Both the position numbers and the translations under genes were made by a program. A DNA stretch of 64,000 bases from Chloroflexota bacterium (GTDB lineage Bacteria; Chloroflexota; Dehalococcoidia; Bin125): contig JAPPNI010000027.1 in assembly GCA_028873865.1 (NCBI GenBank), positions 124,001 to 188,000 of the forward strand, in the 5' to 3' direction. Below the pieces are notes generated by a model. It was given only the letters and a program-made list of their open reading frames with translations. It ran no database searches and had not been told where the DNA came from. Every line of letters starts with the position of its first letter. The first letter of the stretch is position 1. Shown here one piece after another: positions 1 to 27,100 of this stretch.

Positions 1-2
1 CC

Positions 3-977: not shown

Positions 978-2614
978 GAACGGGTGATCCGGCGGTCAGC
1001 ATCCTGAACTGGTTGAGCCGGTTGCCGCTGCTCGACCGGCTCGAACTGGCGGCGCTCTCGGGCTGGTCGCGCAGCGCCGTTTACCGCGCGGTTGCGGCGC
1101 TGGAGCGGGAGCGGTTCGTCGACCCCGTCGCCCACGCCTCCGAGCTGATCGCGCCGACCAGGCGCTACACGCTCACGGCCGCCGGTCTGCGCCGTTTGGC
1201 ACAGTCGGGGGACATCGCGGTGGATCGGCTGCTGCGTGAGCGTCCCGTCTCCGACCAGGCGCGGCGGCTGATGTTCGGCCGGATCGATGCGCTCGCCGCG
1301 CTTTACCGGCTCAGCTGCGCCGTCGCCGACATCGCCTTCCCGGTCCAGGCCCGCAGTTACCGGGCGCTGCCGTTCGACCTCTGCCTGCGGCTGGCGGACG
1401 GGCGCACGATCGCGCTCGTCCGCCTGGGCAAGATCAACGAACGCCGGTCCCTCGCCAGGCGGCTCGCCCGGCTGCGCGACGGCGCGGCGTTCGCCGCCGT
1501 GCTGCTGCTCGCGCCCGATGAGTTCAGGCTGCGCGACGCCGCTCGGCGGTTACGGACCATGCCGCAGCCCTGCTTCCTCGCCCTCGAGCGGGACGCCGTC
1601 GAGGCGGGACCCGACGCAAGGATCTGGCGCGCGCCGTCGGCTGCGGCCGTGCTCAGCCTGCGCGAGGCGCTGGGACTCGCTGGGCCTCATAACAGCTGGC
1701 CGGTCGAGCGCCCACTCTCCCGCGTCGCAGCGCCTGCTGAGAGCGGTCCCACCGGCGCCCGATCCGACTGGATGCTGCCCGCCACATTGCATCCTTCGGA
1801 GAAGCGCTGTCTCGACCTGATCGGCGACTGGCCCTGGCTGCGGCTCGATCACATCGCCGCGCTGCTCGGCGTTGGCCGCGTGCGCCTGCGCGAACTCCTG
1901 CGGCGAGCCGCCGAGTGGGGGTTGATCGTCCGCCGCGCCGTCCTCGGCCGCCCTCGCCTGGCGCTTTCGGATCGCGGTCTGGCGCTCCTCGCCCGCCGCG
2001 ACCGCGCTTCGGTCGGCGAGATGCGCAAGCGCTGGAGCGTCGAACTCACCGAGTCGTCGGCCGGGTTCGGTTGGCGCAACGTCAGGGGAACCAGGAGCCG
2101 CCAGTTGCTGCGCAATCTCGCCCACACCGAAGCCGTGCACGGATTTCTGGCAATGGTGGCCGAACAGTGTCGATCCGACGGCTGGATGCTGATGCAGCTT
2201 GACCCGCCACAGCGAGCCTCGCGGTACTTCCATTTCGACGATCGCCTGCGCTCAGTCCAGCCTGACGCGTTCGGGGTGTTGCGACGGGAGGGGTGCCACC
2301 AGCAGTTCTTCCTCGAGTGGGAACGCCGCGCGATCCGGCCCTCGACGATGGCCCGACGGCTCGCCCCCTATCTGCGCTACTACTCGTCCAAGCGGCCGCT
2401 AGAGGATCACGGAGTCCCTCCGCTCGCCCTGATCGTGTTCGACGACGCGCTCGCGGCTGATCACTTCCAGCGGGTTGCGCGCGAAGAGATGGACCACGCC
2501 GGCGTCGAGTTGCCGGTGTTCGCCTCGGACAGACGAGTCCTCACGCAGCATGGCCCTCTCGGCCGCGTCTGGACCATGCACGGCGAACGCCATGCACGTG
2601 CTGTGTTTGCCTAG
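974..2614 (+). CDS. Replic_Relax-like winged-helix protein (ICE-L copy)
   Basis: 546 residues. Residues ~8-75 read as a winged helix-turn-helix (LDRLELAALSGWSRSAVYR), and a second HTH-like region lies near 285-330 (LRLDHIAALLGVGRVRLREL). This plan resembles the replication-relaxation family (Replic_Relax, PF13814) found on conjugative elements of Gram-positive-type bacteria. The start overlaps the ATPase stop by 4 bp, giving translational coupling. The paralogue at 36090-37727 has the same position and length but is clearly more diverged than the ATPase pair. The stop is 9 bp before an IS21 element, which spared the frame. Role in DNA processing is inferred from family and context; no relaxase motif is visible. 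Confidence 0.6.
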   Translation: MRTGDPAVSILNWLSRLPLLDRLELAALSGWSRSAVYRAVAALERERFVDPVAHASELIAPTRRYTLTAAGLRRLAQSGDIAVDRLLRERPVSDQARRLMFGRIDALAALYRLSCAVADIAFPVQARSYRALPFDLCLRLADGRTIALVRLGKINERRSLARRLARLRDGAAFAAVLLLAPDEFRLRDAARRLRTMPQPCFLALERDAVEAGPDARIWRAPSAAAVLSLREALGLAGPHNSWPVERPLSRVAAPAESGPTGARSDWMLPATLHPSEKRCLDLIGDWPWLRLDHIAALLGVGRVRLRELLRRAAEWGLIVRRAVLGRPRLALSDRGLALLARRDRASVGEMRKRWSVELTESSAGFGWRNVRGTRSRQLLRNLAHTEAVHGFLAMVAEQCRSDGWMLMQLDPPQRASRYFHFDDRLRSVQPDAFGVLRREGCHQQFFLEWERRAIRPSTMARRLAPYLRYYSSKRPLEDHGVPPLALIVFDDALAADHFQRVAREEMDHAGVELPVFASDRRVLTQHGPLGRVWTMHGERHARAVFA

Positions 2615-2618
2615 TGCG

Positions 2619-2623
2619 AGTGG
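2619..2623. repeat. IS21 target-site duplication, left copy
   Basis: AGTGG immediately left of the IS terminus at 2624 is repeated at 5060-5064. IS21 elements typically duplicate 4-8 bp. Removing the element and one copy restores GTGCGAGTGGACTTCGCAC, a hairpin with 6-bp arms. Confidence 0.9.
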
Positions 2624-2710
2624 TGTTTTGATCGCTCTTGATCTAGACCAGTTGATCGGTCTAAGACTAGGCCACCTGGAGGCGGGCATAGTCTCTCCCG
2701 TTGGTGGTTG

Positions 2711-3496
2711 CTAGGCCTCACCTCCCGCCTGCTGCGGCGGCGACGCGGTTGGTGTTCGCGCGTGCCGAGTCCGGTAGGACTGACCGCGGGTGGTGAGGAT
2801 GTGGGCGTGGTGGCCGAGCCGGTCGAGCAGGGCGGTCGCCAGCTTCTCGTCGCCGAAGACCTGGGCCCACTCGGAGAACGCGAGGTTGGTGGTGACGATC
2901 GTGGAGCGCCGCTCGTAGCGGTCGGCGAGCAGGTTGAAGAGCAGTTCGCCGCCGGCCCGCTCGAAGGGCACGAAGCCGAGTTCGTCGACGATCAACAGGG
3001 CGACGCGCGAGTAGCGCTGGTGCAGGCGCGAGAGCGTGTGTTCGTCGCGGGCCTCGACCAGTTCGCGCACGAGGTCGGCGGCGCGGATGAAGGCCACGCG
3101 CTGGCGGCGCTGGACGGCTTCGACCCCGAGTGCGATCGCGAGATGCGTCTTGCCGGTGCCGATCGGCCCGGCGATCACGACGTCCTCGCCGCGCTCGAGG
3201 TAGTCGCAGGCGGCGAGTTGGGCGAGCTGCGGCCGCTCGATCCCGCGCAACGCGTCCCAGTCGAGCTGGTCGAGGGTCTTGTGGTCGGGGAAGCGCGCCC
3301 CGCGCAGCAGCCGGGCGACGGCGCCGTCGCGGCGGGCCAGGACCTCGGCTTCGAGCAGCTGCAGCAGGAACGCCTCGTAGTCCCAGCCGTCGTGCGCGGC
3401 CTGACGGACGAGCTCGGGGTACTGGCGGCGCACGGTGGGCAGCCTGAGTTCACGGCAGTGGGCCTCGAGCACGGCCCGGCGCGCGGCGTCGCTCAC
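2711..3496 (-). CDS. istB: IS21 transposition helper ATPase IstB
   Basis: 261 residues from a GTG that overlaps the istA stop (GTGA), which is the classic istA-istB coupling; the longer upstream frame would run into istA and was not used. It is an AAA+ ATPase with Walker [12 protein letters not shown], Walker [13 protein letters not shown] and sensor segment [10 protein letters not shown]. IstB oligomers load on target DNA and stimulate the IstA transposase. Length and motifs are complete, so it is probably functional. Confidence 0.95.
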
Positions 3497-4950
3497 GATG
3501 CACCTCGTTCCAGCAGACGGTCGTAGTCGGCCAGCGAGGCGCACTCAACGCGGTAGCCGCGCAGCCGTTCCGGCACGGTCACCTCGCCCGGCGCCTGGGC
3601 TGCGGCCAAAGAACGCCGGATCGCCAACTCGTCGAAGCCGCCTTCGGCGAGACCGGCCTCCAGCGCCACCCGCACCCGCTCCTCGCCGTGTTCGGCGGCC
3701 GCCTGCAGGAGCCGCGCCAGGGCGCGGGCCGCCTCGTGACCGCCGCGTTCCTCCTCCAGCAGCGTCCACAGCCGGTCATAGGGCCCGCCCAGTTCGTCGA
3801 TCAGCTCCGGCGCCACCTGGCGCAGGGCCTGCGGCTTGCGCGAGAGCTCGCCCAGGTAGTGGCGGTAGCGCACCCGCCGGCCGCCGAAGCGCTGGCGCGG
3901 ATGGCTGACCTGCTCCGCGCCGCGCTCGAAGGCGACCTCGGAGACGCCGACCCAGGCGGTCACCCTGAGGCCCGCCCAGCGCTCCGGGACCGAGTACCAG
4001 GCTCCCTCCAGCCGGACCATGGCGCTGCGGTTGACCGAGACCGGCTGCATCCGCCGCGGCTCGAACGCGACTGCCGGCAGCGGACGCAGCAGCGGCCCCT
4101 CCGTGGCGAAGCGCGCCCAAACCTGCTCGGGCGCCAGCCGGTCGACCTCGGCTTGCATCTCCGCGGAGATCTGTTCCAGCGAGTCGCCGCGCGGCAGCGG
4201 TGTCAGCACCTGCCAGCGCACGCCCCGGCCGCGGCCCTCGACGCCGCCCTTGTCGTGACCCTCGCCGGGACGGGCGAAGCTGGGCTCGAAGGCGTAGTGA
4301 CTGGCCAGCGCGGCGAAGCGCTGGGTCAGCTGGCGGCGCGGGAACTGCACCCGGCGCACGGCCGCCGAGAGGTTGTCGTAGACCATCCGCCGGGGCACGC
4401 CGCCGAAGTGTTCGAGGGCGCGCACGTGCCCATCGAGGAAGGCGAGCTGGTCCTGGCGTTCATAGAGCCGGACGTAGTCGCGGCCCGAATGCATCAGCCG
4501 GAAGACGAGCAGCCAGACCGGTCGCCGCTCGCCGGCCAGGTCGACCCAGACCTCGAAGAAGTCGACCTGGGCGCTCTCGGCCGGGCGGTGGACCAGCGGC
4601 ACGTAGACCTCGGCCCGCCGCCGGCGCCACTCGCGCAGCTCGGCCAGGACCAGGGTCAGGCCGACCTCGTAACCCTCCTCGCGCAGCTGGCGGTGCAGCC
4701 GGCGTCCCGTGATCCGCTGCTTGGCCGTGGTCCGGTGCGACCACTCCTCCAGCAGCTGCTCCAGCCGCGGCCGGACCCGGTCCAGGACCGGGCTGGCGCG
4801 TTGCCGCTCTTGCCGCTCGGGCACCGGCGTCGCCAGGTAACGGCGCACCGTGTCCCGCGCCAGCCCCATCTCGCGGGCCACCATGCGTTGACTCTGGCCC
4901 TCGACCAGCACCTTGCGCCGCAGCGCATAGATATCCATCACTCCGAGCAT
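3493..4950 (-). CDS. istA: IS21 transposase IstA
   Basis: 485 residues. The N-terminus has an HTH (residues ~18-40, [20 protein letters not shown]), followed by an rve-type DDE core. The acidic triad is visible as the D of [10 protein letters not shown], the D of VYDNLSAAV and the E of [14 protein letters not shown]. It binds the IS ends and catalyses cut-and-paste/circle transposition with IstB. The frame is intact and of usual IS21 length. An ATG three codons in (MDIYALRRK) is an alternative start. Confidence 0.95.
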
Positions 4951-5059
4951 CCCTCTCTCCCAACCGGCGTCGGCTCACGCCGATCACAGGTTGGAGCTTG
5001 GCCCCCAAGTGGCCGAGTTTTAGAGCGATCACTGGACGACTTTTAGAGCGATCAATACA

Positions 5060-5064
5060 AGTGG
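5060..5064. repeat. IS21 target-site duplication, right copy
   Basis: AGTGG directly after the right IS terminus, identical to 2619-2623. Confidence 0.9.
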
Positions 5065-5463
5065 ACTTCGCACGCGTCGGCGCGCGCGATGAGCACATCG
5101 TTGGCAGTTGCCTCTGAAGCGTCAGTGAGTGTCGTCGTCCTCTGCTTCCCTAGCGGGGCGCCTTGCGACCTTAGCAAGTGTTCTCCTCATTTCCCAGGTA
5201 CGGCTAGGGATACACCAGGCAGCGCGGGTCTTCCCGTCAGACCAGTTCAGTGAGTTCCCAGGACGCCGGCCGACCTCGGCGCTTCGTGTTCTTCGATCTC
5301 GTGGGTTATCTCTAGACAGCGCTCTAAGACAACGTCCACTGCAGCTAATCCGCCGAAGAGATCGCTAGAGAACACGTGTTTACAGCCCAAGAGGTCAAGC
5401 GTCGTCCTCGCAGATGGTGCCGCCAAGTGGAAGGTCCATGGCCAAGCGGCGATCCGACTTCAA
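5065..5463. other. Intergenic stretch without a recognisable gene
   Basis: About 400 bp between the IS and the 3' end of the membrane-protein gene. Only short frames without family resemblance are present. The first bases (5065-5073) form the right arm of the hairpin split by the IS. Confidence 0.5.
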
Positions 5464-8154
5464 CTACGAATCATCCTCATTACCGTCACCATCATCCGAG
5501 CCCACTCGAATGATCCAAGCTGCCTCGGGTTCTTCGACTTCGAATCTCGAGCGTTCCCCCGTTCGGATACGCACTAACAGTCGCAGCTGGCGTACCCGCT
5601 CCGACCGGGCGTCTTCTTGGCTTGCACCAGGAAAGTCCTTCTGCGCCTGCTGTACCGCGGTCTCCTGATCAACATCCTCCACCCTGACTGCGAAGTCGTC
5701 GTATCTGATCGGTGCACGATCAAGCCATCCCCAACGGTCAACATCGACTACGAGAATTGCGGATTCATCATCGCTGGGAAACCAAACTGCCGACCGTCTC
5801 TTGTACGCACCAAGCGACTGGCGAAATCCACGTGCACGAGGGGCAAGGACCTCATCTCTGTGACCTGCGGCCAGACTGCGGAAGCTCGAGATGATCTCTC
5901 TTGACCAGTTCCCAAAGAACACAATCAACAGTTTCCCGCCGTCAAGCTCGCTCAGCGCGACATCGACTGCTGCGAGCAGTTCCTCAAGGGTGGCGTTTTG
6001 GACTGGGTGCACTGCCGATGATGCTTCGACCTCCCTTGTCAGCGCCGCAGCGAGGCTCTGCTCGAATCCAAACACGCTCCGCTTGTTGGTGAATTCCCCA
6101 TAAGTCGTGGAGCGAACCACGTCGCCGACAAACGACGAGCGTGGCCACGTCCACGTCAAGCGGAAGTGACTCTCATCCAGCCACTCGTCATCGTCCAAGC
6201 GCCGCACCCGGCCCACCTGTTCAAAGCAGTCCTGCAGCACGCGGTCCCGTTCTCGCCACGACCTCAAGTTCTGTTTCAGTCGCAACACTCGCTCTTGGTC
6301 GAGAGCCGCCGCGATGTGCAAGTCGTCAACCTCTCGCGTTTCGGCTGATTTCGCCGTCTCAAGGCGCCGCTCGAAACGCGCTATTGCCTCCTCCCTATCC
6401 TGCGGTTGCACACCTGCCAACTCCAAGATGATGTCTCTGTGCCGAGTCCATGTCTCAACGAGTCTATGCGCGTGGCCACCGAGTGACGGCAGCGGTTGGT
6501 CAGTCCCCGTCCTCAGAAGATCCACCAACAGCGGGAGCAATGGATATCGCCAGGTGGTATCCCACGAGAAAATGGGCACACTGCTGCTCTCACCGCTGCT
6601 CTCCCAGCGAGACCACTGCCTGTGCAAAGGTGAATCCGCCTTGTCGCAGGCAGCAGGTACTAGTCTCTCAATCTGCGTGGATTGATCGACCATTTCATTG
6701 ACCAAGTCCAAGTATGGACCGCCTTCCCTGAGCTCACCTTGCTCTTTCAGCGAGATTGCTCGTCCGGCGAGAGCTAGTAACGCCATCACCGCGTACTCGA
6801 AGTTTGACAGCGGCGAATACCGGTCCACGATGCGCGACTCGTATGTCCAACGGTGTTGCTCGTCGTCATAGAACGACTCGCGAAACTCAGACAGCAAATC
6901 GCGGAATGAGTCTGCGTCATCGATCTCCAGAAGCGTGTTTCCGCACTCTTCGAGGTGTTCAATCAGCCTTCGAACGTAAGGTCCTGCTGTTGGATCGATC
7001 TCGCCGTTGTCTGTTTCGCGTAGCTGCCACCAGGCCGAGAAGCCGAGATTCGACCACGCGTGACGAGTATGGTCGCTAGAGCGTCCCGCCTCCCGTGCGG
7101 CCTGGTCGCCGATCAGGCCCGACCTCAGTCCGACCTCCAAGAGCTCCCCTGATCTTCGCTCGGCGCCCGTCAGCAGGAGCCAATCCCCAAGCGCCCTCAT
7201 TTCAATCTCGAACTCGAATCCTTGCCGGGCGAACGCAGCTCGCCACAACTCGTCCAATCGCTCGTGCAAGGCGTTCAGGGGGAACCAATATCCGTACCTC
7301 GGTTCACCAGGAGCCTGAAATCCAATGTCGCTCTCGGCGACCTGATCGGCGGAGTTCTCGATCAGTTTTCTCAATCGCCCCAGCGCCCCGCTAAATCGCG
7401 CGGCTTGCCCGCTCTGTAGTGCGTCTTCCACTTCGGCGAACAGACGCTCGGTCGCCGTCAAACCCATAGGCCGGTAGGGCAAGAGGAGCCGCTCAAATGG
7501 GCTGAGCATGGGGAACTCATCGAGCGCATTCGATATGTACTGCGCAACTTCCTCTCGCCGTTGTCGATCATTTGCCCGGAATCGGTATTCGATCACTCCG
7601 GTAGGCCGCAATACGTAGACGGTGCGAAGGACGGTCCAAAGGAGCACAACGCCCACGCCGCCTGTGAGTAGATACGCGCACAGCAACAAGTTCGCGGTAC
7701 GAGTTTCTTGGAGGACCACAGAAAAGTCCGCAATCGCCAGACACAACAGTGTCGCCAGCAGCGCCGCGAGCGCAAAGGTGAACATCGGTCGAATCCAAGA
7801 GGCGCGCAGCATGATCTCGTAGACCGTGTCGTCGCGGTCTTCCTGGCGTCGCGCCAACTCCACCGCGAGCACCAATGCGATGAGCGAAAGGCCGGTGACC
7901 GCGCCTTGCACTGCGGCAATCGCGCCGATCGACGCATCCGAGCGCAGAACCACAGGAACCACTGGTCCTCGCACGAGAACGTCGAGAAGCACGAAGGGCG
8001 CAGCCGCCGCCAGAGTCTCGCGGTGCCAGTCGCGAGCTAGGCGCAAGCCGAGGACAGCCAGCCATGTGCCGAATTCGCGCCCGCGCTGCGACGCGGAGAT
8101 CAGGCCCCGTCTGAGGGCAGCACCGCAGTCGTGTAATGCCAATAGAGCGCTCAA
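5464..8154 (-). CDS. Large membrane-anchored protein of unknown function
   Basis: 896 residues. There are probably three or four N-terminal membrane segments (about 47-70, 76-100, 122-145, 154-178), followed by a ~700-residue soluble part rich in charged residues and Trp, and an acidic C-terminus. The topology recalls DUF2254-like proteins but I see no firm family motif. The start is uncertain: the frame opens with TTG and has no early ATG. It is divergent from the nuclease-like gene at 8746 and lies in the ICE-L cargo interval, which suggests an accessory, perhaps defence-related, role. That is inference. Confidence 0.6.
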   Translation of the reverse strand: MSALLALHDCGAALRRGLISASQRGREFGTWLAVLGLRLARDWHRETLAAAAPFVLLDVLVRGPVVPVVLRSDASIGAIAAVQGAVTGLSLIALVLAVELARRQEDRDDTVYEIMLRASWIRPMFTFALAALLATLLCLAIADFSVVLQETRTANLLLCAYLLTGGVGVVLLWTVLRTVYVLRPTGVIEYRFRANDRQRREEVAQYISNALDEFPMLSPFERLLLPYRPMGLTATERLFAEVEDALQSGQAARFSGALGRLRKLIENSADQVAESDIGFQAPGEPRYGYWFPLNALHERLDELWRAAFARQGFEFEIEMRALGDWLLLTGAERRSGELLEVGLRSGLIGDQAAREAGRSSDHTRHAWSNLGFSAWWQLRETDNGEIDPTAGPYVRRLIEHLEECGNTLLEIDDADSFRDLLSEFRESFYDDEQHRWTYESRIVDRYSPLSNFEYAVMALLALAGRAISLKEQGELREGGPYLDLVNEMVDQSTQIERLVPAACDKADSPLHRQWSRWESSGESSSVPIFSWDTTWRYPLLPLLVDLLRTGTDQPLPSLGGHAHRLVETWTRHRDIILELAGVQPQDREEAIARFERRLETAKSAETREVDDLHIAAALDQERVLRLKQNLRSWRERDRVLQDCFEQVGRVRRLDDDEWLDESHFRLTWTWPRSSFVGDVVRSTTYGEFTNKRSVFGFEQSLAAALTREVEASSAVHPVQNATLEELLAAVDVALSELDGGKLLIVFFGNWSREIISSFRSLAAGHRDEVLAPRARGFRQSLGAYKRRSAVWFPSDDESAILVVDVDRWGWLDRAPIRYDDFAVRVEDVDQETAVQQAQKDFPGASQEDARSERVRQLRLLVRIRTGERSRFEVEEPEAAWIIRVGSDDGDGNEDDS

Positions 8155-8745
8155 ACCAGCACCGTTTCTTCGGCGTGCGCGGCGTCGCCTCCCACTGTTG
8201 CGATCCTACGTGCGTTCACTGTCATGCTTCCTCAGCGTGTCGCGATCTGCGAAGGCCAGTGTCGGCAGGCGCGGTGTCTTGCGAGAGAACCCCGTGTGGC
8301 GTCTCCCGGCGTCGCACCGTGAGGCCAGGGGAAGCGTTCGATTGACTGGTCAGACGCAACCGTACCGCAGCGCGGCCTTCGCCACGGTTGCCGTTCGGTG
8401 TTGGGAAGCGGCTGAGAGCCTCCTCAATGCAATCTACCGCCACGCCCACATCGCCATGGTTAGCAGCAGCCTGCCCGCCACGGTCTGGGGGTGACATTGG
8501 GTCCACCCGGCATCGGTCGCCACCTTTCCATCCGTCGTAACCGGAACTCCCGCCTTGCGGTGGGCGTACTGCCTGCTGGCCACGACGGCCGATGGTGTGT
8601 CTCGGGCTCGCCAAGGAGAGATCACGATGAGCAGTGCACGACCTCTTGCAACGACGTACGCCCTGCAGCCGCGAACGAGGTCGAGGTAGCCCTATGCCAG
8701 AATGGAGACCTTGAGCACTGATGAGACTCGTGACGGAAACACAAC
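8155..8745. other. Divergent intergenic region, no clear gene
   Basis: About 590 bp between two divergent accessory genes, so it should hold both promoters. A 20-codon frame at 8627-8689 begins with ATG after a good ribosome-binding site (AAGGAGAG), but has no recognisable product. No RNA gene was seen. Confidence 0.45.
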
Positions 8746-11700
8746 GTGAGCGTTGCACAGGAATCGGCAGGAGATGTCCCGCCACCGACAGCTACTTCCG
8801 AGTCTGTCCTTCCATTCGGTTTCATCGGCTCGGAACCCTTTGAGCGGCTCTGTCAAGACATCGCAAAGAGGATCGGATACACAGCCGTGTACCGGTTCGG
8901 AAAGAAGGGGCAGAAGCAAGACGGCATCGACTTCCACGGAATAGATCGAGAAGGCTCGCCCATCGCTTGGCAGTGCAAGTGCGTGAGCACGTTCACCGGT
9001 GACGACCTTCGGAGCGCCGTTCGAAAGTTTGCCGAGGGTCCCAGAGCAGAGGCGTACGCGGCCTTTGTCGTCTGCATCGCGTGCGAGGGAAATGACAGGA
9101 GTCTCCAACTCGAACTCCCGAGCATTAGGGAACAGCACGAGTTCAGGATCGAACTGTGGGACTCTCCCTGGCTCACTGACCGACTCGTCGATCTGCCGAA
9201 TCTCGTACAGCGCTACTTCGGTCCTCATTGGCGGGACAAGTTCATTGCTCCCTATCGAGCCGACTCGCGGCATCTCGGCGCCAAAGCGCTCTTGTATGGC
9301 CCGGTCGAGGCTCATGGGCTCACCACGAAGGTCGAAGAAGCGGAGCGGCTCGCAGAATCGTCGCCGGCTGAGGCCGTTGAACTCTTCGAGGAGATCGAGC
9401 AGGAGCTGCGAGAGCACTCCCCGCGTCACGCCGACCGTTTCCGCGAGAAGCGAGCTTTTGCGCTGATCGACGCCGTTGGGCCGAAGGCTGGCCACGATGA
9501 ACTCATGCGACTGGCCGTGCGGGACCTGTTCGGCAGGGCTGAGCCTGAGCTCTCGCCGGAAGTAGCGCGCGGCTTGAGCAAACTTGGCGATCAAGTTGAT
9601 CCGTTAAGAAGGGCGCGCGGGCAGGCTCTGTTCCATTTCCGCTGGACACACGAGGATCCCGAGGATCTCTCAGACCTAGCGGACTGCTTCGACGCTTTGC
9701 CATTCGATGATGAGTACGCGCCTCACATCGCCGTCTTGCTGACTGAGGTCGCCGTCGCAACCGGAGATCATCAGATCGTCAATGACAGACGGCTGCAACT
9801 TCAGCAGACGGCCGACCATGCCGATGGTGACTTGGCTCTACGGTTGCGAGCCGCGCTCGCCGATTGTGACGAAGGCGGGGTGTGGCTCAATCTGATCGCC
9901 GATGCGGAGGGACCCCGTGTTCGGCCGCGTGAGGCGGCATTCATTTGCATGCGTGCGGCGCGTTGGTCCGCGTGGAGCGGCGAAGACGAGCGGGCCGAGT
10001 CGCTCTACCGCCAAGCGATGAGATTCGCCGCGGACGCCCGGCTAGACCTCGACGTCAAGAGTGCCCTGCGTTCGCTCTTGTCGTTTTACGGCTCGCCCGA
10101 GCGATATGACGATTTCGTCGAGGCGCATCAGCTCATGTTGGCAGTTGACGGCAGCGATTCATTCATTTCTCAGAGTGCTCAGACAGCGCGGTACTCGTAT
10201 CAATACTTGGCGACCGGGAAACTGCCCGGCGCTCATAAGTTGAGCAGATATCGAGTGCTCGAAGGAGTTCGGAGTGGCTGCCTCTCTGATGAGATCGAGG
10301 CCCATAGTGTTCTTGCACGTGTCTACATGGAGTCGGGTGAGCCGAATGACGCTCTTGAGCACGCAATGCTCGGCGGCGACCCGGAACTGACGAAGAAAGC
10401 GGCCTCCCAGATCGACGATTGGCCAGTGGTTCTGGATGCGATGGTCGGCGCTACAGCGCCCTGGGTGCGACTCGCGGCGCTGCATGCACTTGAACATCTA
10501 GGTGACCTCGCCCCACCTCAGGTGGCGAAGAGACTCGCTCACGAGCTGATTCGGGACATCCTCGCCGATCCGGATGACGCGTCAGTAACTCGAGCTCTCT
10601 ACGAGGCTCTCTCGGCAGTGGTCCTTGAGGCGACTGATGAGGACATCAATGAACTCATGCCGGTGATGAGGCAAGCAGTCGTTCGGGAACCGGGCGGCTA
10701 CCGTTGGACCGATCCTGGAGTAGTCACCCTGGCAATTCTCCTGTATCGCTTCCGGGACAGGTGGCGAGCACAAGCCTCCGAGATCCTTGCTGAGCGACTG
10801 ATCGGGGCGAGGACGAACGATTGGTGGGAGGTGACCAGCGAGTGCGGCCCTGAAACAGAAGCTCTAGTCGAGGCGATCGAACGAGTCGCGGATCGAACCT
10901 CAGTCAACTTGGATGAAGCCCTTGCCAACCTGAACCGCCTGAGTGAGTCGACTCGGGTCTTTTGGTTGAAGCGCCTGGAGTATGTGGCAGAGCATCCTGT
11001 AGGCCCCCTGAAGAGTCAGAAGATTGGTGATGACTTCGAGGTGCCGAGGCCGTTCCTCGAAGAGCAGAACGTGGAGGCGATTGTCCAGTATGTCCGCAAG
11101 CTCGTGGCGCTGGCGAATTGCTTGCACGTTCATGCTACGAACAGGGCCGGAGCGCTCCGTGTTGGAGGAAACGTCGTGGACATGTTGCCCGAGGAACAGC
11201 GCCTCAGCCTCTTCGAAGCAGTCAAGCCGCTGGTTGGACCCGATGTGGAGTTGTCCGAACACGAGCGCCACGATGCAGAAACCGACCACCCACTGAGCCG
11301 AATCCGGATCAGCATGGGAGGCGCCGACGGATTGCGCCTCGCCGCCGGCTGGTTTCTCGCTCGGGCCGCGGCAACTGATGAACAGCGTGCAATCGTGATC
11401 TCGCTTGCGAAGGAATGGCTCTGGTCAGCTGAGCAACAGTTTCAATACCGAGGTGCCGTCCTGCTCAGCCAGCGGAACCTTGCGGGCCACGGTATCCATG
11501 GAGCTGAATTGGCGAAGCATCCCAATTCGATGGCTCGCTGGATGGCGCCGTTCATGCCTGATGTAGTGGAAGCGCCCGACATCCGGCTGGCGCTAGAACT
11601 GGCCACCGACCCAAGCCGCAACGTGCGTCTCTCAGTGATCGATACTCTGAGGTCATTCGACCCCGAGGCAAGACAGCAACTCCTCTCGATCTTTGCCGAG

Positions 11701-11754
11701 GACAAGAGCGCCATCGTGAGGCACGCTGCGGCCGACGCCGTGTTAGACGACTAG
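8746..11754 (+). CDS. Mrr-like nuclease domain fused to helical repeats (putative defence protein)
   Basis: 1002 residues from a GTG. Residues ~22-160 look like a PD-(D/E)XK restriction-endonuclease fold of the Mrr type: PFERLCQDIAKRIGY, then QDGIDFHG (D62) and AWQCKC (Q76-x-K78). The rest is alpha-helical with TPR/HEAT-like character and ends in a HEAT-like segment (IRLALELATDPSRNVRLSVID). No P-loop is visible, so it is not an obvious STAND ATPase. Nuclease-plus-repeat architectures are common in anti-phage proteins, and it sits next to the ICE-L recombinase. Defence function is inferred. Confidence 0.6.
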   Translation: MSVAQESAGDVPPPTATSESVLPFGFIGSEPFERLCQDIAKRIGYTAVYRFGKKGQKQDGIDFHGIDREGSPIAWQCKCVSTFTGDDLRSAVRKFAEGPRAEAYAAFVVCIACEGNDRSLQLELPSIREQHEFRIELWDSPWLTDRLVDLPNLVQRYFGPHWRDKFIAPYRADSRHLGAKALLYGPVEAHGLTTKVEEAERLAESSPAEAVELFEEIEQELREHSPRHADRFREKRAFALIDAVGPKAGHDELMRLAVRDLFGRAEPELSPEVARGLSKLGDQVDPLRRARGQALFHFRWTHEDPEDLSDLADCFDALPFDDEYAPHIAVLLTEVAVATGDHQIVNDRRLQLQQTADHADGDLALRLRAALADCDEGGVWLNLIADAEGPRVRPREAAFICMRAARWSAWSGEDERAESLYRQAMRFAADARLDLDVKSALRSLLSFYGSPERYDDFVEAHQLMLAVDGSDSFISQSAQTARYSYQYLATGKLPGAHKLSRYRVLEGVRSGCLSDEIEAHSVLARVYMESGEPNDALEHAMLGGDPELTKKAASQIDDWPVVLDAMVGATAPWVRLAALHALEHLGDLAPPQVAKRLAHELIRDILADPDDASVTRALYEALSAVVLEATDEDINELMPVMRQAVVREPGGYRWTDPGVVTLAILLYRFRDRWRAQASEILAERLIGARTNDWWEVTSECGPETEALVEAIERVADRTSVNLDEALANLNRLSESTRVFWLKRLEYVAEHPVGPLKSQKIGDDFEVPRPFLEEQNVEAIVQYVRKLVALANCLHVHATNRAGALRVGGNVVDMLPEEQRLSLFEAVKPLVGPDVELSEHERHDAETDHPLSRIRISMGGADGLRLAAGWFLARAAATDEQRAIVISLAKEWLWSAEQQFQYRGAVLLSQRNLAGHGIHGAELAKHPNSMARWMAPFMPDVVEAPDIRLALELATDPSRNVRLSVIDTLRSFDPEARQQLLSIFAEDKSAIVRHAAADAVLDD

Positions 11755-11967
11755 CAACGTCGAGCCGGGCGAGTCGCGGAGGGCATGAACGCGAGCTATC
11801 CATGAAGACTGAAACGCACTCGGCACCCGGCGCCATTGGTGCCGCAGACGACACTCCCACGCACTGACCAGTTGATCCGCTGTACGATGTTTCGAACATA
11901 GCTGAGGTGGACCGAACACCTCACGAGCGTCGTCTGACGGTACTGGACGTATGCAGAGGAGCCATCG

Positions 11968-13686
11968 ATGAATGACGACCTGAATCACACCCCCGCCGCC
12001 CTCTATGCTCGCGTCTCCTCGGACCGGCAGGATGTCGACCTCTCCGTCGCTGCACAGCTCAGAGCGCTGCGCGACTACGCCGAGCGCAACGGCTACATCG
12101 TCGCCCGCGAGTACATCGACGAAGCCGAGTCAGGACGTGTCGCCGACCGACCGCAGTTCACGAAGATGCTGGACGAGGCCGCGCAGCCGGATGCGCCGTT
12201 CCAGGAGATCCTGGTCTGGAAGTTCTCCCGCTTCACGCGCAAGCGCGAACACGCCGTCGCCTTCAAGTCGATGCTGCGCCGGCGCGGGATCCGGGTCACT
12301 TCGATCACCGAGCACGCCGACGACACTCCGACCGGCAAACTGATGGAGGCGATCATCGAGTCGGTCGACGAGTTCTATTCCGAGAACCTCGCCCAGGAGG
12401 TCACGCGCGGCATGCGCGAAGCCGCCTCAAGAGGCTTTTGGGTGGCCAGCCGGCCGCCCTACGGGTACAAGCGGGTCAAGGTCCAGGACGGCGGCAAGGA
12501 GCGTCCCACGCTGGTGCTCAACCCGCCCGTCGATGAGGTCGTGCGGCGCATCTTCGAGATGGCCTCCTCAGGCCAGAGCGTGCTCGACATCACCCGCACG
12601 CTCAACTCAGAAGGCATCCCCACCACCACCGGCAAGCCCTGGCTCAAGACGACCGTGCACCGGCTGCTGACCAACGAGGCCTACACCGGCACGCTGGTCT
12701 GGGGCCACAACGCCAAGGACGGTTCCGAGCCGGTGCGGGTCGAGGACGCCTTCCCGGCGATCGTCACGCGCGACGAGTTCCAGTACGTGCAGCGGCTGCT
12801 CAAGTCGCGGGCGCCCAGGAAAGCGAACCCGCGGCGCGTCTCCAGCCCCTACCTGCTCTCGGGCCTGGTCGGCTGCGAGCCCTGCGGCGTGAGCATGTCG
12901 GCGGCCGAAGCCAAGGGCGGCCGCTACAGCTACTACGTCTGCCAGTCGAAGATCAAGAAGGGCTCCGAGACCTGCCCAACGCCCAGGCTCAACGCGCGCG
13001 ACTTCGAGCGCACGATCATCGAGCAGCTGCGCGGCCACATCCTGACCGAGCGCAACATCCGCGAACTGGTCAAGATGGTCGATGAGGAGCTGGACGGTCT
13101 GGCCCATGAGCAGCGGCGCAAGCTGGAGACGGTCGAGCACGAGCTGGGTGAAGTCAACCGGGCGCTCGACCGCATCTGGCGGCTGGTCGAGACCACCGAC
13201 CTGGAGATGGCCGACGCCGCCGACCGCATCCGCGAGCACAAGCAGCGCAAGCAACAGCTTGAACAGGCGGTGGATGAGTCGAGGCGGATGCTGGCCGAGC
13301 GGCGCGAGCTGCTCGACTCGGCCGAGCTGGTCGCCGCGTTCGCCGCGGAGATGGGCGAGTTCCTCGCGACCAGCGAGCTGACCGAGACCCGCGCCTTCCT
13401 GCGCACGTTCATCCAGGGCATCGAGGTGAGGCCCGGCCGGGCCCTGATCCGCTACACGATCCCGATGCCCGAGGACAGCCCGATCGGACGCTCAGACCGC
13501 GCCGAAGTGGGGTTGGAGCGCGGAGTTCGCAAATCGGTACGTGTTGGTGGAGCCGAGGGGATTCGAACCCCTGACCTCTGCCGTGCAAGGGCAGCGCTCT
13601 CCCAACTGAGCTACGGCCCCGGAGACCTCAGCCTAGCGCCATTGGGCGCGAATCCGGCTAGCGCGACGGGCTCGAATCCCGACTGA
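11968..13686 (+). CDS. Large serine recombinase (ICE-L integrase); C-terminus runs through tRNA-Ala
   Basis: 572 residues from an ATG preceded by GAGGAG. The N-terminal resolvase domain has ALYARVSSDRQ with the nucleophilic Ser, EYIDEAESGR and KFSRFTR. It is followed by a recombinase domain (~150-250), a zinc ribbon (C-x2-C GCEPCG, later CQ...C), a coiled coil (~380-450) and the IRYTIPMP motif also found in the second recombinase. After that motif the frame enters the tRNA-Ala gene in antisense (giving EGIRTPDLCRARAALSQLSYGP) and the end of cobU. The tail beyond ~13490 therefore probably reflects integration-site sequence rather than a conserved domain. The enzyme is expected to integrate and excise ICE-L. 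Confidence 0.88.
   Translation: MNDDLNHTPAALYARVSSDRQDVDLSVAAQLRALRDYAERNGYIVAREYIDEAESGRVADRPQFTKMLDEAAQPDAPFQEILVWKFSRFTRKREHAVAFKSMLRRRGIRVTSITEHADDTPTGKLMEAIIESVDEFYSENLAQEVTRGMREAASRGFWVASRPPYGYKRVKVQDGGKERPTLVLNPPVDEVVRRIFEMASSGQSVLDITRTLNSEGIPTTTGKPWLKTTVHRLLTNEAYTGTLVWGHNAKDGSEPVRVEDAFPAIVTRDEFQYVQRLLKSRAPRKANPRRVSSPYLLSGLVGCEPCGVSMSAAEAKGGRYSYYVCQSKIKKGSETCPTPRLNARDFERTIIEQLRGHILTERNIRELVKMVDEELDGLAHEQRRKLETVEHELGEVNRALDRIWRLVETTDLEMADAADRIREHKQRKQQLEQAVDESRRMLAERRELLDSAELVAAFAAEMGEFLATSELTETRAFLRTFIQGIEVRPGRALIRYTIPMPEDSPIGRSDRAEVGLERGVRKSVRVGGAEGIRTPDLCRARAALSQLSYGPGDLSLAPLGANPASATGSNPD
13545..13620 (-). tRNA. tRNA-Ala (anticodon UGC)
   Basis: 76 nt including an encoded CCA. The acceptor stem pairs GGGGCCG with CGGCTCC, then A and CCA; the D-arm is TAGCTCAGTTGGGAGAGC, the anticodon loop CTTGCAC gives UGC, and the T-arm is GGGGTTCGAATCCCC. 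All arms pair, so the gene looks functional. Its 3' end faces the ICE-L recombinase, the usual geometry for integration at a tRNA 3' end. It follows cobU by 37 bp on the same strand; a TAGGCT -10-like box about 10 bp upstream could give it its own promoter. Confidence 0.97.
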
Positions 13687-14203
13687 GCGCCTTCAGATTC
13701 AGCGGCAGACCCGCCGCCACGAACCAGACCTCATCCGCCGCCGAGGCCACCAGCTGGTTCACCCGCCCCAGCCGGTCCGCATAGTCCCGCCCCAGCTGGG
13801 TCATCGGAACAATCCCCAACCCCACCTCATTCGAAACCAGGATCCACGAAGCCTCCTGAGCCCGATAAAGCTCTAGCAACCGCCCCGCCTCAGACAGCAC
13901 ATCCCGCTCCCCCTCCGCATGCATCAGGTTGCTCACCCAAAGCGTCAAGCAATCGAGCAGCACCGTGTCATACTCCCCCACGACCGGCCGCAGGACCTCA
14001 ACCAGGTCAAGCGGCTCCTCCAGGGTGTCCCAACCAGCCGGCCGGTCGGACTGATGCCGACGAATCCGAGCCGCCATATCCGCATCACCCGCCTCCGCCG
14101 TCGCCACAAACAACACCCGCGCACCCCGCTCCGCCAACTGCTGCGCATACGTGCTCTTGCCCGCCCGCCGACCGCCAAGGATCAAAGTCAACGACTTGCT
14201 CAC
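13658..14203 (-). CDS. cobU: Adenosylcobinamide kinase / adenosylcobinamide-phosphate guanylyltransferase
   Basis: 181 residues starting with GTG 3 bp after cobC. P-loop GGRRAGKS (residues 10-17), then the CobU signature RIRRHQSDRPAGWDT and NEVGLGIVP. It phosphorylates adenosylcobinamide and transfers GMP to give AdoCbi-GDP in nucleotide-loop assembly. It is the last protein gene of the B12 operon. Its final ~29 bp overlap, in antisense, the tail of the ICE-L recombinase frame. Length is normal. Confidence 0.95.
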   Translation of the reverse strand: MSKSLTLILGGRRAGKSTYAQQLAERGARVLFVATAEAGDADMAARIRRHQSDRPAGWDTLEEPLDLVEVLRPVVGEYDTVLLDCLTLWVSNLMHAEGERDVLSEAGRLLELYRAQEASWILVSNEVGLGIVPMTQLGRDYADRLGRVNQLVASAADEVWFVAAGLPLNLKALSRDSSPSR

Positions 14204-19309: not shown

Positions 19310-19383
19310 GATGGTGTACGACCTGGCCGGATTTGACGCCCGGAGATCGGTGGACCTCTCTGAAGCGGAGAGTTGTCACCTCT

Positions 19384-19581
19384 CGTCCAGGCAGGTCTCC
19401 TGGCTCGCGGGTGGATGCTGCGCTGGACCCTTCCCATCGACCTCACGTCGGTCGACAGTGGGTGTCAGCTCTCCGTTCTGCCCCGACCGCATCGACTGCT
19501 GGTACGGGCCCCGCTTACAGTGGCGCTACCGCGTCGGAATCTCACCGACTTCCCTATTCTCCCGGGACGGGCACCTGGACG
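19384..19581 (-). ncRNA. Cobalamin riboswitch
   Basis: Read on the minus strand: the P1 arms CGTCCAGG and CCTGGACG enclose the element. The conserved GGTGCCC start, GGGAAGTCGGTGAGATTCC core, GCCACTGTAA box and AGCCAGGAGACCTGCC B12 box (19390-19405) are all present in order. It precedes btuC and a terminator, so it senses adenosylcobalamin to shut off import and salvage genes. Confidence 0.96.
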
Positions 19582-19596
19582 AAGTTTGCTGCACGA

Positions 19597-19626
19597 AGCC
19601 TAACAGCGCCATCCGACGGCAAACAA
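19597..19626 (-). promoter_or_regulatory. Possible promoter of the B12 operon
   Basis: Minus strand TTGTTT, 18-bp spacer, TAGGCT, about 15 bp upstream of the riboswitch. The TAG of the -10 box is at the same time the stop codon of the second recombinase. The match to consensus is weak and the call depends on position. Confidence 0.4.
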
Positions 19627-21258
19627 GCGACGCGCCGCCAGAATCGGTGCGCCAGAAAGCTGCACTGAGTGGGTAAGGGATACCGGCGGTGATGGTGGGC
19701 CGGACTGGACGAAATCGAGAACTGATTCCCGGTCCTGGGTTGCGCCATCGGAGGGCATGGGGATGGTGTACCGGATCGATACTTCATCCCCGTCGATCTT
19801 GACCCCCTGGACGAAGTTGCGGATCAGCGCCTTGCGCTCCGGGATGGTCCCGGTCTGGAGGAACTCGCGGAAGTCGGCGACGTAGCGCTTGATCTCGGGC
19901 GTTGAAGGTAGGTCGGCGCGGCGCTGCTCCAGCTGGCGGACGGCGTCGTCGCGGGCCGCTGCCAGCTGATCCTCCTGCTGGCGCAGCTTGAGGATGCGCG
20001 GCGAGAGCGCATCATAGGTCAGCTCGCTGTTCTCAATGGCGTCGTAGAGCTTCTCCAGGCGGCGGCGGACATCGTCCAAGTCCGACTCGATGATCGCCAG
20101 GTCCGAGGCCCGCTCCTGGGCCAGCGCGTCGACCTCCTCGGCCACCAGCTGGACCAGTTCCGTGATCGTCTCCTCGTTGAGGATGCGCTGCATGATCTTG
20201 GCGACGACCTGGTCCTCCATCCTTCCGGCGTTGAGGTAGCGTCCGTCACAGGCGCCTGCGCCCTCGCGCAGAAGCTTGTTGCAGACGTAGTAGGCGAACT
20301 GACCGCTCTTGGCGCTTTGCCCGGTGTACGGCTTACCGCAGACGCCGCAGCGCAAGAGACCCGAGAGCAGGAACTTGCTGCCCACGCGGGCCGGCGCCTG
20401 GATCTTCGGCGCCCGGGCTCGGAGCCCCGCCTGCACCGCGTCGTACAACTCCCGCGAGACGATGGCGGGCCAGGCGTCGGCGACTCGCACCGGGTCGGGA
20501 GTCTGTCCATCCCTAGCCGTCTTGCCCCAGACCGCGGTGCCGGTGTAGGCCTCGTTGGTGAGCACGTAGTGCAGCATGTTCTTCTGCCAGCGCTTGCCGC
20601 CCTTCGTGATTCCGCGCTCGTGCAGGTCCTGGCAGATCTCCTTGAGCCCCTGACCCCGGGCCGAGCGCTCGAACATCTCCTTGACGATCGGCACGGTCGC
20701 CGGGTCGATCTCCAGCGTGGGACGCTCCTTGCCGCCGTCCTGCACCTTGACCCGCGTGTATCCGTAGGGCGCGCGCGAGCCGAGGAAGAACCCGCGCGAG
20801 GCGGCCTCGCGCATCCCGCGCGTGACCTCCTGAGCCAGGTTCTCCGAGTAGAACTCGTCGACCGACTCGATGATCGCCTCCATCAGCTTGCCGGTCGGAG
20901 TGTCGTCGGCGTGCTCGGTGATCGAGGTGACGCGGATGCCGCGCCGCCTGAGCATCGACTTGAACGCGACGGCGTGCTCGCGTTTCCTCGTGAAGCGGGA
21001 GAACTTCCAGACCAGGATCTCCTGGAAGGGGGCGTTTGGACCGGAGGCCTCGTCCAGCATTTTGCGGAACTGAGGCCGGTCGGCCACTCTGCCGCTCTCG
21101 GCCTCGTCGATGTACTCGCGGGCAACGACGAAGCCGTTGCGCTCGGCGAAGTCACGCAGCGCGCGCAGTTGTGCGGCCACCGAGAGGTCGACATCCTGGC
21201 GGTCGCTGGAGACACGGGCGTACAGAGCGGCTGGGACGCGGTCGGGCTGGTGTTTCAT
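19600..21258 (-). CDS. Large serine recombinase (ICE-R integrase)
   Basis: 552 residues from the ATG at 21258, preceded by CAGGAGCGGCACC; the longer frame to 21294 lacks this site. Resolvase domain with ALYARVSSDRQ, EYIDEAESGR and KFSRFTR, recombinase domain, zinc ribbon (RCGVCG and later CNK...C) and coiled coil. Its first ~150 residues are nearly identical to the ICE-L recombinase, whereas the DNA-recognition half differs strongly. After IRYTIPMP the last 50 residues have no counterpart and run through the apparent promoter of the B12 operon, so this tail is probably target-site sequence. Expected to integrate ICE-R next to the riboswitch. Confidence 0.88.
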   Translation of the reverse strand: MKHQPDRVPAALYARVSSDRQDVDLSVAAQLRALRDFAERNGFVVAREYIDEAESGRVADRPQFRKMLDEASGPNAPFQEILVWKFSRFTRKREHAVAFKSMLRRRGIRVTSITEHADDTPTGKLMEAIIESVDEFYSENLAQEVTRGMREAASRGFFLGSRAPYGYTRVKVQDGGKERPTLEIDPATVPIVKEMFERSARGQGLKEICQDLHERGITKGGKRWQKNMLHYVLTNEAYTGTAVWGKTARDGQTPDPVRVADAWPAIVSRELYDAVQAGLRARAPKIQAPARVGSKFLLSGLLRCGVCGKPYTGQSAKSGQFAYYVCNKLLREGAGACDGRYLNAGRMEDQVVAKIMQRILNEETITELVQLVAEEVDALAQERASDLAIIESDLDDVRRRLEKLYDAIENSELTYDALSPRILKLRQQEDQLAAARDDAVRQLEQRRADLPSTPEIKRYVADFREFLQTGTIPERKALIRNFVQGVKIDGDEVSIRYTIPMPSDGATQDRESVLDFVQSGPPSPPVSLTHSVQLSGAPILAARRLFAVGWRC

Positions 21259-21514
21259 GGTGCCGCTCCTGTCTGCTCGGTGTTTCGTTACCATGCATTC
21301 TTTGTTCGAAACATCTTATCGCACTGTCGCAGGCGCGGGAGGTGTGATTCGTTCGTCGCAAAAGCTCCTAGATGGCGTTGGGCGGGTACCAAAGGAAATC
21401 GCAGCGGCACCAGTGGCTCTGCCACGCGGGAGTCGACATCGCTTGCGCGAAGGTCAAGGCTCGCGCTCAGCGCCGTTCGGGTGCTCCAGCATCCATCCGG
21501 GATATCCTCGATGT

Positions 21515-24107: not shown

Positions 24108-27100
24108 TCATACATCTGATTGCCCGGTCCAAGCGGCCGATAGCGACTCGGCTTGTTCAAGCACGGTCAGCGTCGCTTGTTCTTGCTTGTCTGGCGGATA
24201 GCCGTGTTTGCGGAGGATGCGGCGTACGAGAACGCGGAGCCGTGCGCGAACGTCCTCACGCAGAATCCAGTCGATCGTCGTGCTCCCGCGGACTGTTTCG
24301 ACCAACTCGCGAGCGATGTCTCTCAGGGTGTCGTCACCGAGGACTTGGACCGCGCTGTCATTGGTCTCGAGGGCGTCGTAGAAGGCCAACTCGTCATCCG
24401 ATAGGCCGAGTTCCTCACCTCGAGCGCTCGCCTCCCGCATCTGTCGGGCTAGCTCGATCAGTTCTTCGATGACCTGCGCCGCTTCAATCGCGCGGTTCTG
24501 GTAACGCAGGAGCGATCGCTCCAGCATCTCCGCGAACGAGCGGGCTTTGACCACGTTCTGGTGCCGCCTTGTCGCGATCTCGCCTCTGAGGAGTTTCTGT
24601 AGCAGCTCGACGGCGAGATTGCGGTGCGGCATGCTCTGGACTTCGGCGAGGAACTCCTCGGAGAGCACGGATATGTCCGGCTTGTCGAGCCCCGCGGCCG
24701 CGAATATGTCGATCACGCCCTCGGGAGCCACGGCGCGGGAGATGATCTGGCGGACGGCGAGCTCTAGTTCCTCCTCCGAGCGCGACTCGCCTGCGGTTCG
24801 CTCGGCCAGCGAGGCGCGCACGGCTTGGAAGAAGGCGACGTCGTCGCGAATGCGCAGCGCTTCTTCGTGCGGCACAGCGAGTGCGAATGCCTGGGTAAGC
24901 GCCCTCACGGCGTCGAGACAACGCTCTTTACCGTCGTCTTGCTTGAGGATGTGTTCCTGCGCGGGTGGGAGGAGCGCCAAACGCTCAGACGGCGTGCCGT
25001 TCACCCATTGAGACCAATCGAAGCCGTGGAAGAGACCGAGACAGACCTCGTACTTCTCCTGCAGCACCGCCACGGCTTCGTCCTGATCGATCGTCGTCTT
25101 GCCGAGGCCGCCGCTCTCGGTGTACGTGGCGAGCGCACGCTTGAGTTCGTGGGCCAGGCCGAGGTGATCGACCACGAGGCTGCCCGGTTTGTCCTTGAAT
25201 ACTCGGTTGACGCGCGCGATGGCCTGCATCAGACCGTGGCCGCGCATCGGCTTGTCGACGTACATCGTGTGCAGGCTTGGCGCGTCGAAGCCTGTCAGCC
25301 ACATGTCGCGGACTAGGACGACCTGGAGCGGATCGTTGGCGTCGCGGAAGCGGTTGGCGAGGGCCTCGCGCCGGGGCTTGTTGCGGATGTGGGGCTGCCA
25401 ATCGAGTGGGTCCGAGGCGGAGCCGGTCATCACCACCTTGATCGTCCCCTTGTCGTCGGCATCGTCATGCCAGTCCGGCCGGAGCTGCACCAGCTCCCTG
25501 TAGAGATCGACGCAGATGCGTCGGCTCATGCAAACGATCATCGCCTTTCCTTCGAGGACCTCCAGCCGCTTCTCGAAGTGATCGACGATGTCCTGGGCGA
25601 CGAGCTTGATTCGCTTCTCGGACCCGACGATCGCTTCGAGCTGCGCCCACTTGGTCTTCAGGCGTTCCTTGCGCTCGACTTCCTCCCCTTCCGTGGCCTC
25701 GTCGAAGTCGGGGTCGATGTCCGGACGTTCATCCTCATCAAGGGCCAGCCTCGCAAGGCGACTCTCGTAGTAGATCGGAACCGTCGCCTCGTCCGCGACG
25801 GATCGCTGGATGTCGTAGATGCTGATGTAGTCGCCGAAGACCGCCCGAGTGTTGGCGTCTTCCGTCTCAATTGGAGTGCCGGTGAAGCCGACGAACGATG
25901 CGTTGGGTAGCGCGTCGTGCAGATGCCGTGCCAGGCCGTCAATGAAGTCGTACTGGCTCCGATGCGCCTCGTCGGCGATGACGACGATGTTTCGGCGATC
26001 CGACAGCAGCGGATGACGATCTCCCTTGTTGTCGGGGAGGAACTTCTGGATTGTGGTGAACACGACTCCGCCGGACTGCACGTTGAGCTTCGCGCGGAGG
26101 TCAGCCCGCGTCTCGGCCTGTTGTGGCGGCTGTCGGAGCAGGTCCTGACATCGGGCGAACGTGTCGAAGAGCTGGTTGTCAAGGTCGTTGCGGTCGGTGA
26201 GCACGACGATGGTTGGATTCTCCATCGCCCGTTCGCGCACCACGGCGCCGGCGAAGAACGCCATCGTCAGGCTCTTACCGGAGCCTTGCGTGTGCCAGAC
26301 GACGCCGACCCTTTGGTCGCCCGGGAGGCCTCCCGACATCGGCCTCGTCTCGTAGCGGCCTCGGCTTTCCTCGCGGACCTCGCGCAAGCGCTGGCCAGTC
26401 GCGCGGAGCGTCTCGTCGACAGCCATCCGGGCGGCGTGGAACTGGTGGTAGCCGGCCATCTTCTTGGCGAGTGAACCACCGGTGTCCTCGAAGACGATGA
26501 AGTCGCGGATGAGCGGAAGTAGCCGGTCTGGGTGACAGATGCCGGCGAGCATCACCTGAAGCTGGGGAATGTGGTCGTCGACGGGATCCTGCCCGGTAAT
26601 CGTGCGCCAGGGCTTGAACCACTCCCAGCCGGCGGTGAGCGAACCGACCCTACCCAACGTGCCATCCGACACCATGAGCAACTCATTGAAGGTGAAGAGC
26701 GAGGGGATGTGTGCCTTGTAGGTCTGTAGCTGCTGCCAGGCGCTCTTGATGGTGGCGTTCTCGTCGGTCGGGTTCTTGAGTTCGGTGACGCCAAGCGGGA
26801 GGCCGTTGACGAACAGGACGATGTCAGGTCGGTGGTTGTGGTCGCGCTCGGTGACCGTGAACTGGTTGACGGCGAGGTAGTCGTTGGTAACAGGATCGTT
26901 GAAGTCGATGACTTTGACCTGGCCGCCGCGGACGCGGTCTCCGTCGCGGTACTCCACCTCGACGCCCCAGACGAGCATTCGATGCAGCGCTCTGTTACGA
27001 GTTTCGAGGCTGGAGCCCTCGGGTTGGGTCAGCTTGCGGAAGGCGCTTTCCAACGCGTCATTGGGCAGATTGGGATTGAGATCGGCGAGCGCAGCGCGGA

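Follow-up and report, generated by a model that had tools for sequence, protein, structure and literature searches.

Among the closest described systems, and according to the accessible parts of the sources cited here, DsiB of the Dehalococcoides ssrA islands, the nearest of them, is a CcrB-like serine recombinase whose 3' end always overlaps the att site (McMurdie et al. 2011, PMC3146451). In these islands, which occur in tandem, the stop codon of dsiB is found only outside the island, either in ssrA, of which about 70 bp are read antisense, or in the next island, and the authors proposed that full function of dsiB might be limited to the circle or to a position next to an island with 'the requisite 3' gene fragment' (PMC3146451). 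In the serine integrases of streptococcal ICEs inserted in rumA, attR also lies inside the integrase gene, whose product changes in length and C-terminus upon excision (PMC4701971). The integrase gene of the Myxococcus phage Mx8 contains attP, and integration replaces 112 residues by 13 (PMC6070905, PMC4701971), giving an altered enzyme described in one account as not inactivated and changed in specificity (PMC6070905) and in another as less active (PMC4701971). The archaeal suicidal (SSV-type) integrases keep the recombination target in their own gene as well, and their directionality has been proposed to derive from gene integrity (PMC8371274). Serine recombinases acting at tRNA genes, such as those of Mycobacterium AICEs (tRNA-Leu) and the Ralstonia phage phiRSM1 (tRNA-Ser), have been called rare (PMC3218068).

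The locus analysed here lies in a window of 64 kb (C41:124,001-188,000 of a 2.80-Mb, 41-contig draft genome) and is built around a recombinase gene, A, whose reading frame runs uninterrupted from ATG to TGA over 572 codons. Pfam searches found in A the Resolvase (PF00239, 2e-32), Recombinase (PF07508, 1.4e-24) and zinc-ribbon (PF13408, 2.5e-13) domains, a content that makes it a large serine recombinase and not a tyrosine one. The features of this junction, in window positions, are the following:

1 to 13544, no strand, right-hand part of element 1, which extends left to C41:84,891 (window position -39,109)
2708 to 4950, IS21-type istA/istB pair inside element 1
11968 to 13686, plus strand, large serine recombinase A in its integrated-state reading, 572 aa
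13525 to 13544, plus strand, right att arm GTTCGCAAATCGGTACGTGT, the last element-supplied codons of A
13545 to 13550, plus strand, core TGGTGG, common to attL, attR and four empty sites
13545 to 13620, minus strand, complete tRNA-Ala(TGC), the insertion target (ARAGORN; Rfam agrees with 13548-13620)
13546 to 13686, plus strand, host-derived tail codons of A, GGAEGIRTPDLCRARAALSQLSYGPGDLSLAPLGANPASATGSNPD followed by the stop
13658 to 14203, minus strand, chromosomal cobU (Pfam CobU; syntenic in four empty-site relatives)

The initial annotation had the frame of A passing antisense through an entire tRNA-Ala, which is borne out by both tRNA predictions and by the open frame from 11968 to 13686. 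It also took everything after the residues IPMP as antisense tRNA up to a stop inside cobU. The tRNA and the stop were read correctly, and the final 29 nt of cobU are overlapped antisense by the frame of A, but IPMP corresponds to residues 498-501 and is followed by 25 element-encoded codons that are shared by the family, with counterparts in relatives. The tRNA antisense starts at the final base of codon 526, so that residues 1-526 are encoded by the element and the 46 residues past this point (527-572) by the host. The gene upstream of A encodes a 1002-aa HEAT-repeat protein.

The limits of the element were obtained by comparing the tRNA-Ala(TGC) locus in 12 of the 14 other genomes of the genus. 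Four of them (L052, L053, L054 and L058, in G014, G003, G008 and G006) keep an empty tRNA-Ala/cob site, and a search of the 4.4-6.0 kb at each showed no recombinase of type A or B; cobU lies 0.7-1.3 kb from the tRNA in two further relatives, and was not found near it in six of the 12. The flank of the empty tRNA in G008 matches C41:84,271-84,890 of the window genome with 82% identity, and this match stops precisely at the expected tRNA start, where the chromosome gives way to TGGTGGGCCTAGCGATACCGAACTGCGAAC. Because this relocated flank abuts the left end of the element, element 1 can be placed at C41:84,891-137,544, a length of 52,654 bp. A second copy of the tRNA 3' end was not found inside the 64-kb window, since the other end of the element is 39 kb outside. 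At this far end, the inverted counterpart of the right arm is GATACCGAACTGCGAAC. The core TGGTGG is the antisense of the tRNA 3' CCACCA, and its presence in attL, attR and the four empty sites places the crossover somewhere within these 6 nt. In this way, the mapping of att junctions proposed in the initial annotation yielded a common core and both limits of the element. When the site is reconstructed by joining the two element ends, 14 of the 20 arm positions pair, a value that random joins from the window attained 16 times in 20,000, in a rough test that allows offsets. As for the contents of element 1, conjugation genes were represented, in the part of its genes scanned, by two hits below the Pfam cut-offs (PF13814, 5.7e-5; PF01935, 2.1e-4), and the label ICE, used in the initial annotation, stays tentative. 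Its cargo looks defence-like, comprising a UvrD/PD-(D/E)XK fusion, two C-5 cytosine methylases with a Vsr nuclease, and a NOV-domain protein (L165 1336-11588).

Strong matches to A were found in 13 of the 15 genomes of the genus (E 8.7e-110 or better), with distant matches only in G006 and G007, and close copies (93-97% protein identity) occur elsewhere in the same and sister genomes. A collection scan confirmed 199 related stretches, whose source assemblies are mostly labelled Chloroflexi/Chloroflexota or Dehalococcoidia; in phage and plasmid collections, relatives appeared only below 60% identity. The best 80 of these 199 stretches, together with loci from the genus and from long-read genomes, gave 96 distinct 3' ends of A once identical 120-nt contexts were dropped; near-identical contexts were kept, so these counts do not represent independent events. 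Sixty of the 96 ends enter the 3' (CCA) end of a tRNA antisense, 17 meet a B gene tail to tail, four continue into the native tail segment described below, two fall at a contig end, and 13 have no called tRNA, B gene or tail segment. Among these last 13 there are remnants and broken tRNAs, and part of them perhaps correspond to secondary sites. On two contigs of one MAG (L139 and L142), copies of A adjoin GTCGAACCACG, a T-arm motif-like sequence where no tRNA was called and a possible secondary target.

The 60 target tRNAs correspond to Ala, Ile, Met, Glu, Arg, Gln, Val, Leu and Tyr, with 17 anticodon types. In 58 of them, 30 nt separate residue 516 of A from the tRNA end given by ARAGORN; the other two, with 32 nt, are tRNA-Ile genes whose calls are shorter by two bases than the rest, so that the offset is probably the same in all 60. 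Judged by these positions, the fusion of A with tRNA genes is more than chance. The core sequence varies with the type of tRNA and the tail of A does likewise, in agreement with the earlier proposal that the place of insertion determines the C-terminus: tails are alike at the same tRNA type and differ between tRNAs, and identical tails were not seen on homologues at other sites. Integrated tails measure from 3 to 154 residues in the 59 readable tRNA-fused genes, which reveals no visible constraint on their length, and the stop falls no more than about 76 nt from the tRNA end in 31 of the 60, farther away in 28, and is unreadable in one. The residues RT appear near the core in 52 of the 60 tRNA-made tails because the T-loop and the arm share CGAAC. 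Several relatives keep only remnants of A, and the old degenerate copies in long-read genomes gave no clean ends. A PDB search returned nine partial matches, none of them reaching the C-terminal end.

The initial annotation had also predicted that the free element would encode a different tail, and such a tail is indeed present at the left end of element 1. Read across the core into this end, A continues as RKSVRV-GGPSDTELRTFEWALDI and terminates at a stop, so that its final 17 codons and stop lie in frame at the opposite end of the element:

C41:84,892 to 84,945, native tail codons of A, on the left edge of element 1

With these codons at the other end, A is whole only when both ends are joined, and integration joins residue 526 to the 46-residue tRNA-antisense tail instead. 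Searches with the left-end DNA gave matches in 12 of the 15 genomes of the genus, the window's own included, and over all the loci scanned the segment is present as 39 distinct DNA copies. In 32 of the 39 the frame stops at the same codon (index 16), through TAG in 16 cases, TGA in 12 and TAA in four, and seven copies have no stop at this codon. For the 32 segments, and with the tree ignored, pN was 0.303 against a pS of 0.678 beyond the arm, and 0.211 against 0.215 within it. Beyond the arm, third codon positions are variable and the F, W, V and L residues are mostly kept. Over the stretch read, frame +1 is free of stops in 35 of the 39 copies and frame +2 has early stops in 21, a uniform terminal stop being present in frame 0 only; moreover, the sole length change between core and arm is of 3 nt, which keeps the frame. 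The frame of A is continuous into the tail segment in L205 (where the contig begins inside A), L136 and L074, and into another, third type of tail in L107, junctions that would represent either circles or tandem insertions. We conclude that the left-end segment is coding and constitutes the native C-terminus of A. When a native-tailed relative was folded with AlphaFold2, its tail showed a pLDDT below 50, and the model thus predicts no structural role for it.

The same arrangement can be followed outside the genus. Matches to the dehalogenase family were found in 17 of 393 genomes of the class, and relatives of A were present in all ten single-contig genomes chosen among those 17. Their 30 loci provided 28 recombinase 3' ends (three of them from distant relatives, with 25-28% identity): 21 lie at a tRNA (Val, Ile, Ala, Met, Asn or Asp), one beside tmRNA, and six at neither. 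Opposite arms with an in-frame tail such as GGAGVSIGRTGQDFEVSFGLSL and a stop occur in eight of the 30 loci, and further in-frame tails were read by eye in L289, L299 and L300. By these sequence features, the A-type design is present in dehalogenase-rich Dehalococcoidia. At L282 (G196), the frame of a distant serine recombinase (26%) enters tmRNA antisense, which may be an ssrA insertion of the DsiB kind.

Past the chromosomal cob operon with its cobalamin riboswitch, a second element is marked by a paralogue of A, recombinase B:

19373 to 19593, minus strand, cobalamin riboswitch (Rfam) leading the chromosomal cob operon, in the interval that separates the elements
19600 to 21294, minus strand, serine recombinase B, the paralogue of A, on the left edge of the second element
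19693 to 19698, plus strand, core TGGTGG marking the left limit of the second element, a boundary inferred from its signature

B is about 58% identical to A, and its frame likewise leaves the element and stops in host DNA. Its tail segment, PP-NWTKSRTFELRFRLDV followed by a stop, occurs in inverted orientation at the ends next to a tRNA (tRNA-Ala in L065 and L195) in 19 distinct versions, 16 of which stop at one codon (TAG 8, TGA 7, TAA 1), with a pN of 0.275 against a pS of 0.567 in these 16 when the tree is ignored. None of the 34 ends of B falls at a tRNA, which would put B at the tRNA-distal end; in sequence terms, its arrangement is the mirror image of that of A. Segments of B and A meet at many junctions, and an A or B gene was present in the flanks of about 1.5 kb only in L205, among 45 loci. 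In this line, a mini-element of about 0.95 kb at a tRNA-Ala(GGC) of the window genome (L242, G000:C39:115000-119000, about 1270-2218) has a tail segment at each end and no space for a recombinase gene. It is the only one observed with a segment at both ends, and its B segment is without the usual stop. Elements of this kind point to the existence of non-autonomous forms.

The right end and the tRNA of the second element were looked for and none could be placed with certainty. The C13 arm beside tRNA-Ala(CGC) was rejected as its right end because about 7.1 kb of other DNA lie there, together with the flank seen in G006 (L239). The tail segment of G009:C22 and its A|tRNA-Ile junction were rejected as the limits of a single clean second element because another arm junction lies between them; a flank search there did not put the flank beside tRNA-Ile. 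To the right of B there is a type I restriction HsdR (window 24108-27227). Sister genomes do not agree in the DNA that lies downstream of a given tRNA (L176 in G014, L177 in G006, L238 in G000:C13 and L239 in G006:C8), and the region of the cob riboswitch lies beside tRNA-Ala(CGC) in G014 and beside tRNA-Ile in G006, which suggests chromosome rearrangements between att sites located at tRNAs.

Compared with the systems described above, A is like DsiB a serine recombinase gene left open across the att site, with its stop only in the flanking DNA. However, the target of DsiB is tmRNA (ssrA), with an insertion in the T-loop that was inferred, whereas A enters many tRNAs at their CCA end, and the neighbour of DsiB is DsiA, a second serine recombinase of about 200 aa, instead of a 1002-aa HEAT-repeat protein. 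The 3' fragment of DsiB was not identified in the accessible text of the 2011 account; here, such a fragment was found, and is conserved, for both A and B. A literature search confined largely to freely accessible papers found no description of the missing fragment. The rumA integrases share with A an attR inside the gene and a C-terminus that differs upon excision, which for A is read from sequence, but their target is a protein gene with which 3' ends are exchanged and not a tRNA. Both A and the Mx8 integrase have attP inside the gene and acquire a new 3' end upon integration, although the latter is a tyrosine enzyme with a long native tail and A a serine one with a short tail. By analogy, Mx8 offers an experimental parallel for the altered activity of a tail-swapped enzyme. 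The SSV-type integrases have in common with A the recombination target within their own gene, but they are tyrosine enzymes in which integration separates the catalytic part. Finally, AICEs and phiRSM1 share with A a serine recombinase and a tRNA target, each with one tRNA and with no gene split described in the accessible text of that survey (PMC3218068), in contrast to the many tRNAs of A. An att site inside the recombinase's own gene was thus already known, and what appears to be new is a serine clade at many tRNAs and a 3' segment identified, and conserved, for two paralogues.

Altogether, we favour, with a probability of about 0.78, that this locus is the right att junction of a 52.65-kb element whose attP lies inside the recombinase gene, so that A exchanges a native tail for a tRNA-derived one and would change its activity. 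The element sits at the 3' end of tRNA-Ala(TGC), with the crossover assigned to TGGTGG, and the A family could use many tRNAs as targets, presumably owing to the similarity of their 3' CCA ends and T-arms. Upon excision, the ends would join and restore the native tail GG(P/R)xxT(E/V)LRTFxWEVxL. The free circle would then make a full-length A, most likely the form tuned for integration, and the integrated element a tRNA-tailed A that may differ in activity or direction; recombinase B would follow the reverse layout, its tail segment being placed on the tRNA side. A functional switch by tail swap can be inferred from this arrangement. Points against this reading are the spread of integrated tail lengths, the poorly defined native tail in the model, the seven tail segments with no stop at the usual codon, and the 13 of 96 ends of A that adjoin none of the three expected features.

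The tail swap might instead be a harmless by-product, the overlap of attP with the gene saving space or coupling site and enzyme, any tail working equally well and the native one being kept only for modest reasons of stability. This is quite possible, though short of even odds: integrated tails as different as 3 and 154 residues, stops lying within the tRNA length in 31 genes and past it in 28, and the low-confidence native tail of the predicted model all fit with it, but in the tail segments of both A and B the sequence and the place of the stop are preserved and, outside the arm, pN is lower than pS. Tails related to these are also present in distant Dehalococcoidia. That the conserved left-end segment is a non-coding DNA site, a second recombinase arm, seems very improbable. 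Its start does contain the inverted arm CCGAACTGCGAAC, almost invariant in DNA and with a pN close to pS, yet outside this arm most F, W, V and L residues are retained despite changes at third codon positions, TAG, TGA and TAA replace one another at a single site, the other frames have no common terminal stop, and the 3-nt change between core and arm preserves the frame. We also find it improbable, if slightly less so, that element 1 is a fixed fossil with an accidental open frame through the tRNA and cobU, as the IS21 pair within it and the relatives that keep only remnants of A could indicate, because the frame of A, both ends and the core are all intact and 93-97% identical copies of A lie elsewhere in this genome and its sisters. 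An assembly artefact or chance overlap is hardly credible: the draft genome has 41 contigs and multiple copies of A, but like fusions recur in assemblies made independently, among them single-contig genomes and contigs 2.30 and 2.69 Mb long.

Beyond the favoured reading of an attP within the gene and a swapped tail, the gene could act as a sensor of its own state throughout a widespread clade of bacterial serine recombinases, with only the joined form making the native enzyme and the integrated form an enzyme whose tail is supplied by the host tRNA, direction controlled without a separate directionality factor, any core-matching tRNA serving as target, and elements reduced to tail and arm moving in trans; as a whole, we regard this extension as doubtful. 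For a set of DsiB-related recombinases, these results answer at the sequence level the question raised in 2011 of where the stop and the missing 3' fragment are. They also describe a clade of serine recombinases that targets many tRNA genes, which the Islander paper of 2014 described as not known and the survey of 2011 as rare. Whether the tail swap controls the direction of recombination is now a testable question. If the tail is indeed a switch, it would offer a compact route to one-way integration tools, and recombinase genes annotated from integrated elements can bear the wrong C-terminus.
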